A program made the position numbers and the translations under genes. The notes beneath the pieces were generated by a model. The model was not told where the DNA came from. It made no database searches and was given only the letters and a program-made list of their open reading frames with translations. A stretch of 8,565 nucleotides of DNA from Magnetovibrio sp. (GTDB lineage: Bacteria > Pseudomonadota > Alphaproteobacteria > Rhodospirillales > Magnetovibrionaceae): NCBI GenBank assembly GCA_016763895.1, contig JAESSV010000289.1, forward strand, positions 1 to 8,565, in the 5' to 3' direction. This document shows positions 2,838-8,565 of the stretch, piece by piece. Numbering within the stretch: the stretch's first letter is position 1; each line of letters starts with the position of its first letter.

Positions 2838-3263
2838 ATGGACATCAAAATGGACATTAAAATGGGCATTGGGGCGTTGGCCAAACGCACCCGATGCAAA
2901 GTAGAAACCATTCGCTATTACGAACAAACGGGCTTGATGCCCAATCCGCCAAGAAGTTCTGGCGGGCATCGGGTCTATGGGGATGGGCATTTAAAGCGAT
3001 TGAGCTTTATCCGCAAGGCTCGCACCCTGGGCTTTTCCATGGACAACATCAAAAGCCTTCTCGCCCTGATGGAGGCCGATCATTTAAGTTGCGGCGAGGT
3101 CGCCGAAAAAGCCGAGCTTCATTTAAAAGACGTGCGCCAACGCATCCAGGCTTTGCAAAACATGGAACAAACCTTAAGTTTAACGCTTGCCGATTGCCAC
3201 CGGGGATCTAACCCCGAGTGTGCGATTATAGACTTTTTTACACAGGACGCAGACGACGATTAG
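2838..3263 (+). CDS. MerR-family metal-responsive transcriptional regulator
   Basis: Dimeric DNA-binding regulator that would distort promoter DNA on metal binding. After an N-terminal MDIKMDIKM stretch comes the MerR winged HTH: IGALAKRTRCKVETIRYYEQ (11-30), TGLMPNPPRSSGGHRVY, then LKRLSFIRKARTLGFSMDNI. A long dimerisation helix follows (about 84-117). Metal-ligand candidates are C85, at the position where ZntR, MerR and CadR carry Cys (CueR has Ser), plus C120 and C128 in the loop DCHRGSNPEC. The C-x7-C spacing is CueR-like, while Cys at the first position points to divalent metal (Zn/Cd/Pb-type). The effector cannot be fixed from sequence. Three in-frame ATGs lie at 2838, 2850 and 2862. 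AAGG at 2827-2830 gives seven bases to the first, which I chose. No efflux or metal-binding gene adjoins it. The acidic tail (DADDD) overlaps the convergent gene. Confidence 0.9.
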   Translation: MDIKMDIKMGIGALAKRTRCKVETIRYYEQTGLMPNPPRSSGGHRVYGDGHLKRLSFIRKARTLGFSMDNIKSLLALMEADHLSCGEVAEKAELHLKDVRQRIQALQNMEQTLSLTLADCHRGSNPECAIIDFFTQDADDD

Positions 3264-4606: not shown

Positions 4607-4655
4607 CGATTAGCTCCTTCTATTTTTCAATCTTGCTCAGGCATTGGAAAAAAAG

Positions 4656-7283
4656 ATGTTAAAGAACTACGGTGGCTTATCCATTATTTCAGGGATTGCG
4701 ATAGGCGTTCTTTTGACTGCGGGGTGGCTGGCGTATGGCAAAATTGAGGCTGAAGTTAAGACAGGTCTTGAAAAAACCCTAAACACGGTGCTGCAAACGT
4801 CACGGAAATCCCTTGAGTCTTGGGCGGGTGGTGTCAAACAGGAAGCCACTGTTTGGGCGGGGCTTCCCGTAACACAAGCGTTCGTCGCGCATTTGGCGGA
4901 AAAGCATGGCTCCTCTATCAACCCCCATAGACACGAAGTGTTACAGAAAGAATTCGGCCCTTTGTCCAAGGTGCACAATTATTTGGGCCTGTATATTTTC
5001 AGAAAAGACAATCTGAGCGCAACGTCATTTTTGACCGACAACATCAATGTATTGGCGCTGTATGCGCAAAATAAATCGTTCTTCGAAGAAATATGGGCCG
5101 GCAAGGTGGTTTTGTCCTTGCCCAAACGTGTGAAGCCACACGATCAGACGGCCAAGTTAGCGGTTGCCCGGATTTTTGTGGGCGCCCCCGTTCGCGACCA
5201 AGAAAATAACGTGGTCGGGGCGTTGGTGTTGTCCTTGAGCCCGCAGGATGGTTTTTCGCAAATTTTGCAACGCGGACGCCTTGGCAATTCGGGAGAAACA
5301 TACGCCTTTAACGCATCCGGCCTGCTGATCAGCGAAAGTCGTTTTGATGCTCAATTGCGCCAAATGAACCTGATTAAGCCCGGGCAACGGGCGGCTTTAA
5401 ACATTTATATTCATGATCCAGAAACCAACTTGCTTGTGAATGGCCCTTTTGTCGGGAATATTCATGATCACCCCCTTACGCGGATGGCAACCCATGCGCT
5501 GACGTTTCAAGATGGCATGAATTTAGAAGGCTATAACGATTATCGCGGCGTACCGGTTGTGGGCGTGTGGGCGTGGGACAAATCCCTCAATATCGCAATA
5601 GCGACGGAAATGGATGCAGAAGAAGCCTATCTTTTTTTGACATCGATGAAAAAAGTCATGATCGGCTTAACGATTATTTCAACGGCGTTGGTCGGATTTT
5701 TATTCATCATTTACGTCATAGGCCGGGAAAAATTGGCCACCAGCGAAGAAGATTTAAGCATCACGCTCAATTGCATCGGTGAGGGGGTGATCGCAACCGA
5801 TGTGTCGGGCAATGTAATGCGAATGAACCCTGTGGCTGAAAAGTTGTCGGGTTGGTTATTTGAAGAAGCCAAAGGGCGACCTTTGGAAGACATTTTTAAG
5901 GTTATCAATGCGATAACCAAAAAACCAGTTATGAACCCTGTGAAAAAAGTGATGGCCAGCGGCAAGGTTGCGGGCCTGTCAAATCACACCATTTTGTTGG
6001 CACGCACGGGGGAAAAGCTTCAAATCGCCGATTCCGCAGCGCCCATCCGCAATCGAAAAAACAAGATTTGCGGCGTGGTGTTGGTGTTTCGGGATGTTTC
6101 TGATGAATACACAATGGCCGAAGAACTCAGCACGGCCCTGGGCGATGCGGAACGGGCAAATCAGGCCAAATCGGAATTTTTGGCGAGTATGAGCCATGAA
6201 TTAAGGACGCCGATGAATGCGGTGCTGGGCTTTGCACAAATGCTTCAGTTTGATCTGAAATATCCTTTGTCTTTATCGCAAAATGAATATGTGGAAAATA
6301 TCTTGGCGGGCGGGCATCATCTGTTAGAGCTGATTAATGAGATTTTGGATTTGGCCCGCATTGAATCGGACCAGCTTCCGGTCACCGTGGAAAGCATAGA
6401 TGCTTGCAAAATCATTGAAGATTGCGTGGCCCTGATTCTGCCGTTGTGCCAACCGCAAAACATAAAAATTATCCAATCGGCCGATCCGGTTCTCCCGATA
6501 ATGGTGCGGACGGATCGGTTGCGCTTTAAACAGGCTCTTTTGAATCTTCATTCCAACGCCGTGAAATACAATAAACAAGGCGGCACCATCACGTTGAAAA
6601 CGAAGGAAATCGAAGCGGGTTTTTTGCGGGTCTATGTCAGCGATACGGGCGTGGGCATCCCCGACGATGAACATCACAGTATTTTCAATATGTTCCACCG
6701 GCTCGGAGCCGACCCAACCATCGCCAGAGAAGGGACGGGCATTGGCCTAACCGTAACAAAATTGTTGATCGAACGCCTGGCAGGCCATGTTGGATTTGAA
6801 AGTGAAGAAGGGGTCGGCAGCACATTTTGGATTGAATTGCCCCTGGCTTCAAATACCAAGACTCTGATTTGGTCAGACGCCTTGCAAGTGGGTATCGGTG
6901 CCATTGACCAGGATCATCAAGTCATAATTCGCTTGCTCAACAAATTGTGCCGCAGTTCGGTTGGCCAAAGTGAATTGGCGGCTGTTGTTGAAGAACTGTG
7001 GGATTATTCCCAGTACCATTTTCGTCGGGAAGAAACCATCATGAAGCTGTGCGAATACCCACACCTTGAACATGAACGTGTGGCCCAAGAAAAACTCGTT
7101 TCTAAAATCGAGTCCCTGAACGAAGCGTGGCAAACGTACCAAGAGCCCGAAATGTTGGAAAATTTGCGGACATTTTTAAGGAGCTGGTGGCTCGATCATA
7201 TCATTAACGTTAATACCGAACTTGCAAAATACGCAAAAGGCAAAGAACAGCGTATTCGCAAGGCCTTGAATGATTTAGAGTAG
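4656..7283 (+). CDS. Membrane sensor histidine kinase: dCache-PAS-HisKA-HATPase-hemerythrin-like
   Basis: Predicted inner-membrane sensor kinase of 875 residues. TM1 spans about 8-27. A periplasmic sensor of about 300 residues carries double-Cache hallmarks (RLGNSGETYAF near 208; DYRGVPVVGVWAWD and ATEMDAEEAY near 294-324). TM2 is about 334-356, followed by a PAS domain (about 365-485, ITLNCIGEGVIATD). HisKA has H514 in FLASMSHELRTP. The ATPase domain shows N-box N630/N634 (NLHSNAVKYN), G1 D663 (DTGVGIP), the F-box region FNMFHRL and G2 EGTGIGL. A C-terminal hemerythrin-like domain (about 738-865) begins LIWSDALQVGIGAIDQDHQ; several of its ligands are replaced. There is no receiver or HPt domain, and no response regulator nearby, so it is an orphan here. 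Start: TTG 4644 is also open, but ATG 4656 has TTGGA seven bases upstream and leaves a short N-terminus before TM1. Ligand and output are unknown. Confidence 0.9.
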   Translation: MLKNYGGLSIISGIAIGVLLTAGWLAYGKIEAEVKTGLEKTLNTVLQTSRKSLESWAGGVKQEATVWAGLPVTQAFVAHLAEKHGSSINPHRHEVLQKEFGPLSKVHNYLGLYIFRKDNLSATSFLTDNINVLALYAQNKSFFEEIWAGKVVLSLPKRVKPHDQTAKLAVARIFVGAPVRDQENNVVGALVLSLSPQDGFSQILQRGRLGNSGETYAFNASGLLISESRFDAQLRQMNLIKPGQRAALNIYIHDPETNLLVNGPFVGNIHDHPLTRMATHALTFQDGMNLEGYNDYRGVPVVGVWAWDKSLNIAIATEMDAEEAYLFLTSMKKVMIGLTIISTALVGFLFIIYVIGREKLATSEEDLSITLNCIGEGVIATDVSGNVMRMNPVAEKLSGWLFEEAKGRPLEDIFKVINAITKKPVMNPVKKVMASGKVAGLSNHTILLARTGEKLQIADSAAPIRNRKNKICGVVLVFRDVSDEYTMAEELSTALGDAERANQAKSEFLASMSHELRTPMNAVLGFAQMLQFDLKYPLSLSQNEYVENILAGGHHLLELINEILDLARIESDQLPVTVESIDACKIIEDCVALILPLCQPQNIKIIQSADPVLPIMVRTDRLRFKQALLNLHSNAVKYNKQGGTITLKTKEIEAGFLRVYVSDTGVGIPDDEHHSIFNMFHRLGADPTIAREGTGIGLTVTKLLIERLAGHVGFESEEGVGSTFWIELPLASNTKTLIWSDALQVGIGAIDQDHQVIIRLLNKLCRSSVGQSELAAVVEELWDYSQYHFRREETIMKLCEYPHLEHERVAQEKLVSKIESLNEAWQTYQEPEMLENLRTFLRSWWLDHIINVNTELAKYAKGKEQRIRKALNDLE

Positions 7284-7338: not shown

Positions 7339-7380
7339 GACCGTCTGAAAATGACCCTTTACGAAGAGAGATACGTTGCC

Positions 7381-8007
7381 ATGAAGACCCCAGATATTCG
7401 CCTGCATAAGAATGATTTGCCAGACGGGCTTGTGTTCAAAGACGTGATTGCTGTGGATTCTGAAGCTATGGGCCTGAACCCGCATCGGGATCGTTTGTGT
7501 GTGGTGCAATTGTCGGGGGGGGATGAAGTCTGTCATTTGGTTCAATTCGACCTCGGTGTGACCCACGCGCCAAATCTGCAAAAATTGTTAGAAGACGATA
7601 GCATCATCAAAATTTTTCATTATGCGCGTTTCGATGTGATGTTGTTAAAGAAAGCCTTGAGCATTCGCGTGAACCCTGTGTATTGCACCAAAATTGCCTC
7701 TAAGTTGGCCCGGACCTACACCGATCACCATGGCTATAAAAGTGTGTGCCGGGAATTGGCCGGGGTGCAAGTGTCTAAGGAACAACAGTCTTCGGATTGG
7801 GGCGCCGCCGTTCTGAGCGAAGAACAATTGGTCTATGCGGCCACAGATGTTTTGTATTTGCACGCCATTCGCGACAGCTTAAACACCATATTGATCCGCG
7901 AAGGGCGTATGGACATGGCGCAATCGTGTTTTGATTTCTTGCACACCCGCACCGACCTTGATCTGGCGGGCTGGATTGAACGAGATATTTTTTCCCACAA
8001 CGGCTAA
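7381..8007 (+). CDS. rnd: Ribonuclease D, short form (DEDDy 3'-5' exonuclease)
   Basis: Cytosolic 3'-5' exoribonuclease; E. coli RNase D trims tRNA precursors and other structured RNAs. The 208-residue protein is a single DEDDy domain. Exo I has D26 and E28 (IAVDSEAMGLNPHRDRLCVV), Exo II has D85 (FHYARFDVML) and Exo III has Y152-x3-D156 (YAATDVLYLH), so all four acidic ligands and the Tyr are present. SKLARTYTDHHGYKSVCREL and SKEQQSSDWGA are typical of the alphaproteobacterial short form, which lacks the HRDC domains of the ~375-residue E. coli enzyme. The start at ATG 7381 gives MKTPDIRLHKNDLPDG, the expected N-terminus. An ATG at 7351 would add ten unmatched residues. A purine-rich GAGAG lies ten bases upstream. 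It sits 25 bp before kdsD, a common pairing in this class, so the two are likely co-transcribed. Confidence 0.93.
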   Translation: MKTPDIRLHKNDLPDGLVFKDVIAVDSEAMGLNPHRDRLCVVQLSGGDEVCHLVQFDLGVTHAPNLQKLLEDDSIIKIFHYARFDVMLLKKALSIRVNPVYCTKIASKLARTYTDHHGYKSVCRELAGVQVSKEQQSSDWGAAVLSEEQLVYAATDVLYLHAIRDSLNTILIREGRMDMAQSCFDFLHTRTDLDLAGWIERDIFSHNG

Positions 8008-8032: not shown

Positions 8033-8565
8033 ATGGCGCACAGCACAGCCCTTGATGATGCAAAATTAACCGATCGGGACGCGGATGCTGATTTGGCGTC
8101 TGCCCGGTTGGTTTTAAAAGTCGAACAAGATGGCTTGGCGGCATTGTCTGACAGCTTGGGCAAACCGTTTGTGAAGGCCCTTGATTTGATCGAGGCCGCA
8201 AATGGGCGCGTGGTCATTACCGGCATGGGCAAAAGTGGCCATGTGAGCAAAAAAATTGCGGCCACGATGGCGTCGACCGGACAGCCTGCTTTTTTTGTTC
8301 ATCCGGGCGAAGCAAGTCATGGCGATTTGGGCATGGTGTTGCAAGGCGATGTGGTTATCGCTTTGTCCAATTCTGGGGAAACTTCAGAATTATCAGACAT
8401 CATTGCTTATACGCGGCGTTACGGCATTGGTTTGATCGCCATGACCGGGGGGCAAAATTCAACACTCGCCAAGGCCGCTAAGGATTTCGGACTTGATGCC
8501 AAGTGGGAGAACACCGCAGCTCAAAAGAAAATGGATAGATTCAACAAGAGAAGAGAAACAACTGA
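8033..8565 (+). CDS. kdsD: Arabinose-5-phosphate isomerase (KpsF/GutQ family), 3' truncated with foreign tail
   Basis: Converts D-ribulose 5-phosphate to D-arabinose 5-phosphate, the first step toward Kdo for lipopolysaccharide. The SIS domain is clear: GRVVITGMGKSGHVSKKIAA (K67 matching the E. coli catalytic Lys), ASTGQPAFFVHPGEASHGDL, then ALSNSGETSEL (E116) and IGLIAMTGGQNSTLAKAA. Bacterial identity stops there, at about residue 149. Normally the next segment is a hydrophobic VLLLP-type strand, then EACP(L/N)GLAPTTS, the HPGG His and two CBS domains (~330 residues in total). Here a basic, unrelated 28-residue stretch continues in frame to the window end. SD GGAG (8020-8023) lies nine bases before the ATG, and the gap to rnd is 25 bp. 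The lptC/lptA/lptB genes expected downstream are absent. Family call is secure for 8033-8479; the rest is probably not this gene. Confidence 0.9.
   Translation, partial: MAHSTALDDAKLTDRDADADLASARLVLKVEQDGLAALSDSLGKPFVKALDLIEAANGRVVITGMGKSGHVSKKIAATMASTGQPAFFVHPGEASHGDLGMVLQGDVVIALSNSGETSELSDIIAYTRRYGIGLIAMTGGQNSTLAKAAKDFGLDAKWENTAAQKKMDRFNKRRETT
8480..8565 (+). other. Foreign segment resembling eukaryotic ribosomal protein eL14 coding sequence
   Basis: Read in the kdsD frame, this stretch gives FGLDAKWENTAAQKKMDRF, then NKRRETT and a codon beginning GA. It resembles, from memory, the C-terminal part of 60S ribosomal protein eL14, where KW-x-x-(S/T)-x-x-x-KK precedes a basic run and a DF-x-RF motif. 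The final GA would fit the D of DF. All three Arg codons are AGA, whereas the kdsD part uses only CGN. The junction lies roughly at 8470-8485. The best explanation is a chimeric contig end; identification rests on a short stretch without a database search. Confidence 0.6.

Follow-up and report, generated by a model that had tools for sequence, protein, structure and literature searches.

The window analysed here, 8,565 nucleotides long, is the whole of contig C242 of the alphaproteobacterial MAG G000, a genome of 293 contigs and 1.94 Mb with a completeness of 59.41% and an estimated contamination of 0.48%. Its last open reading frame begins as the isomerase gene kdsD and continues, in the same frame, into a short tail that is cut by the end of the contig. 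The features of this part of the window are the following.

4644-7283, + strand: sensor histidine kinase gene (Pfam domains).
7351..8007, + strand: ribonuclease D-like 3'-5' exonuclease gene, upstream of kdsD (Pfam PF01612, E = 2.6e-38).
8033..8563, + strand: last open reading frame, 177 aa, without a stop codon before the contig ends.
8033..8461, + strand: bacterial 5' part (residues 1-143) of kdsD, the gene of an arabinose-5-phosphate isomerase with a SIS domain (Pfam, PDB 2xhz, congeners).
8462..8482, + strand: junction zone TLAKAAK, with the breakpoint in or beside it (KdsD and eL14 alignment columns, fall of DNA identity).
8480..8565, + strand: coding fragment assigned by sequence to eukaryotic eL14 (60S ribosomal protein), KDFGLDAKWENTAAQKKMDRFNKRRETT, truncated where the contig stops, with a GC content of 0.42.

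In the histidine kinase, dCache is matched weakly, and PAS, HisKA and HATPase_c domains are accompanied by hemerythrin at the C-terminus; oxygen or redox sensing is a natural guess for its function.

Up to about residue 149, the last frame has the marks of KdsD. Pfam recognizes a SIS domain at residues 57-155 (E = 2.9e-20), and over the matched part three congeners are 85-86% identical to it and a fourth is 77% identical. The best solved relative, the arabinose 5-phosphate isomerase of PDB entry 2xhz (E = 5.7e-35), is aligned to residue 151 only. Matches to the frame occur in 40 of 41 genomes, its own included; with the window itself left out, they end at residue 149 or 150 in 35 of 40 cases and between residues 147 and 154 in the other five. 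Altogether, the frame is like its relatives in residues 1 to about 149, in the SIS domain and in its place behind an RNase D-like gene; it differs from them in that the second half of the SIS domain, with the APTTST stretch, and the C-terminal half of the protein, presumably a CBS pair, are absent.

The missing half can be placed by comparison with congener G003, where the order of genes is rnd-kdsD-lptC-lptA-lptB-rpoN (all names but kdsD are presumed from sequence and order). Since an RNase D-like gene also precedes kdsD in G003, the bacterial side of C242 lies in its normal place. The operon resumes on C82, a contig of 3245 b that ends inside lptB: positions 3102-3245 are 98% identical to G003 over residues 272-319, and rpoN adjoins lptB there as it does in G003. 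The stretch between C242 and C82 is therefore an assembly gap, at which C242 ends; by the G003 layout it measures about 2.9 kb, from the 3' part of kdsD to the 5' part of lptB. A search of G000 for the 3' half of kdsD did not find it, the three matches being 28-33% identical.

The tail has another affinity. The top Pfam match of the last 31 residues is PF01929 (Ribosomal_L14e; E = 0.0023, 18.9 bits), and the whole frame matches the same family with E = 0.00047 and 21.1 bits, both below the gathering cut-off of 30.5 bits. Such scores can be expected because under half of the domain is present, the 31 residues covering profile positions 30-60 of 75. Behind L14e comes DUF7582, with E values of 0.11 and 0.2. 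When 5.8 billion proteins were searched directly with residues 138-177, only the window's own protein was found. Among the PDB matches, three CD2 chains (E 0.089-0.22) come first, ahead of a single eL14 (E = 7.9). These three results, the Pfam scores under the cut-off included, are what might be expected if the foreign part were an unrelated basic stretch, similar to eL14 by chance.

Closer relatives give a different picture. A second probe, made of the tail in the eL14 frame and a typed continuation, found eight other proteins, all labelled PF01929. Among them, the environmental eL14 proteins P0122, P0123, P0124 and P0125 are identical to the 28-residue tail at 19, 20, 16 and 18 of 28 positions, respectively, in ungapped register, although, having been found with a probe that contains the tail, they are selected for similarity. 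P0122 and the tail have an identical run of 12 residues, KMDRFNKRRETT. Rescanned with Pfam, P0122, P0124 and P0125 match L14e at E values of 1.1e-21 to 2.1e-24 and 77.6-86.2 bits, over the cut-off; the high same-register identity of the tail is thus to eL14 proteins. Against a profile of the four, from which the window was left out, the tail scores 37.0 bits, and the best of 199,996 shuffles reaches 16.2. Run over 398 genomes, the profile A3 of the same four proteins has C242 as its sole match (E = 9.4e-14). A chance likeness is very improbable in the face of the 12-residue run, the ungapped identities and a score that no shuffle attains.

The signal is modest with an unselected profile, made from 120 of 1512 eL14 proteins, mostly fungal and plant: the last 31 residues are equalled or outscored by 191 of 99,953 shuffles, and none of the 120 listed proteins is identical to the tail at more than 10 of 28 positions. 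At its very end, the tail has TT at the place of the TT or LT that precedes DFDRF in eL14, and the last two bases of the contig, GA, start a next codon that fits D or E. Judged by its sequence, the tail belongs to eL14 rather than KdsD, and the resemblance of the last 28 residues to the eukaryotic 60S protein, which the original prediction had pointed out, is borne out by the 16-20 of 28 identities and the shuffle test, beside the L14e match under the cut-off. It matches the family over a part of the profile and differs from it in being a fragment only, diverged from the mostly fungal and plant proteins; we read it as a diverged eL14, probably of a protist.

The point at which KdsD homology, strong until then, stops is as abrupt as had been claimed. 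Comparison with the full kdsD of relatives, proposed as a check, gave a uniform result: after the junction point, 14 of the 14 fully read relatives, with frames of 328-386 aa, go on with DVALV, DIALV or DVGLV, and a continuation of this type was found in none of the six frames of the last 110 nt (8456-8565). Position 150 is D in 77 and K in 0 of 93 readable rows, and the window has K there. The 94 rows of the alignment behind these counts represent 14 + 80 loci on 90 distinct contigs, four of which occur twice. At the DNA level, identity to the four congeners per block of 27 nt, computed in ungapped register, is 0.63-0.89 over residues 61-141, 0.56-0.63 over residues 142-150 and 0.15-0.26 beyond. 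The KdsD sequence of the window reaches residue 143-149 (nt 8461-8479).

If the tail were nevertheless a real continuation of kdsD, diverged or frameshifted, one would understand why the frame is open to the contig end, and why, with the whole frame as BLASTP query, the alignments of 41 out of 80 KdsD relatives at a greater distance pass residue 150, mostly as far as 163, with 26 of the 41 reaching residue 163 or 167. These extensions align KDFGLDAKWENTAA to pieces such as DVHLDARVEREAC, with at most 6 of 13 residues identical and one gap; the longer ones are all gapped, and none reaches KMDRFNKRRETT beyond its first two residues. We read them as chance, since they are short or gapped, poor in identities, and end short of the tail's strongest part or just where it begins. 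Neither LDAKW nor AKWEN occurs in the translated stretches of at least 100 aa from the 80 distant-relative loci. A match of the tail to KdsD homologues would have spoken for a continuation, but in register 0 of 28 residues are identical to the KdsD of G003, and eL14 is strongly matched instead. With the six frames and position 150 also against it, a continuation of kdsD has practically no standing; its frameshifted form is ruled out by the six-frame translation.

The two sequences meet inside a common word. Just before the tail, the four closest eL14 proteins read TIQKAAK, TLLKAAK, TLAKAAK and TLQKAAK, following the pattern [S/G]T[L/I]xKAAK, and KdsD has at the same place STLAxAx: STLA and a variable residue, followed mostly by A and then by A, S or G. 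K at KdsD position 147 is found in 22 rows and in none of the four congeners. As TLAKAA fits both proteins, the join lies in the shared word; as KAAK is also an eL14 motif, residue 150 may already lie within the eukaryotic part. The earliest start is about 8462, so that the short shared word of the original prediction stands, while the eukaryotic part may start as many as 18 bases ahead of the point first proposed. The foreign stretch would then comprise 86 to about 104 bases at the contig's end. An exact 16-nt match to 8467-8482, across the junction, lies on another contig of G000 (C123:3050-3065, E 0.25) and is probably due to chance.

Shifts in codon use and GC coincide with the junction. 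The Arg codons are CGN in 5 of 5 cases in the kdsD part and AGA in 3 of 3 in the tail, as the earlier observation of a switch had it; all CGN is true of kdsD and not of the window as a whole, where AGA and AGG make up 10 of 143 Arg codons in eight genes. In the same genes, only 7 of 2400 stretches of 28 codons are at least as atypical in codon use as the tail, and these 7 overlap, all at the start of one gene.

The two sides of the C242 end come from unrelated sources. We are highly confident that they form an artificial join of kdsD and eukaryotic eL14 at TLAKAA(K), a word that the two genes would both encode, and that either the assembler or a chimeric molecule produced it; we infer the joining step as follows. 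A short-read assembly would have run out of bacterial coverage inside kdsD, and the contig would have been extended along a eukaryotic sequence with which it had an exact word, at most about 15-21 nt long, in common; alternatively, a chimeric read could have made the join. Most likely, the chimera is one of these: an assembly-graph join, or a chimeric molecule or read. An overlap join predicts that the sides meet in a shared word with the frame kept, as they do here, and the length of the tail does not exceed that of one ordinary short read. The original prediction had preferred a chimera at a short shared word to a real fusion, and our analysis supports it, the shared word being seen at the protein level.

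The end of C242 is thus neither a gene fusion nor a sign of transfer, and no fused KdsD-eL14 protein is predicted to exist. True insertion or recombination of eL14 DNA into the bacterial kdsD, by which a living cell would have acquired an inter-domain gene junction, agrees with a joined sequence that is in frame and contiguous in C242, but is extremely improbable: it needs a chance in-frame strike where both proteins have a common word, the foreign part stops where the contig does, kdsD is full-length in four congeners (in G003 within the operon), and G000 has no L14e match elsewhere.

For the artificial join there are known parallels. One published account states that the merging of similar regions in metagenome assembly can yield chimeric sequences (PMC8862208), and in another, chimeric contigs and graph nodes are treated at length (PMC8171044). 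C242 is like inter-domain chimeric metagenome contigs in joining the sequences of two organisms; it differs in the small size of its foreign part, 86 to about 104 nt, and in the frame being kept, and this is why the join looks like a gene fusion. As biology, the junction matters little; its value lies in a caution and in the trace of an otherwise unseen eukaryote. An inter-domain chimera of roughly 100 nt keeps the reading frame, in a bin whose estimated contamination is below half a percent, and a gene caller would for that reason report a plausible 'KdsD fusion protein'. Unless the reads are at hand, the end of a short MAG contig should not be interpreted as a gene fusion, and in the deposited genome C242 would best be trimmed at about 8461.

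The donor would be a eukaryote, presumably from the same sample, and the presence of a eukaryote there is a fair inference. In G000, the DNA of the tail was matched outside the window by 13 pieces of 14-42 nt, with E values of 0.25 or more, the one on C123 among them. No exact 20-mer of the tail was found in viral contigs, none of 59 pattern-matched viral stretches encodes eL14 (tblastn), and a BLAST search of phages gave 19 records with E values of 0.7-9, none covering 80% of the query. Among 297 genomes at the level of the order, its own included, two others have partial matches to the tail DNA, one of 27 nt with 93% identity and one of 29 nt with 86%.

The four environmental eL14 proteins lie on short contigs and have an invariant KMDRFNK stretch; they are 64-73% identical to P0125. 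As a group, they are not close to the fungal and plant proteins among the 120 listed. In the PDB, P0125 matches proteins of what are taken to be several lineages, with similar scores. The four perhaps represent one protist lineage.
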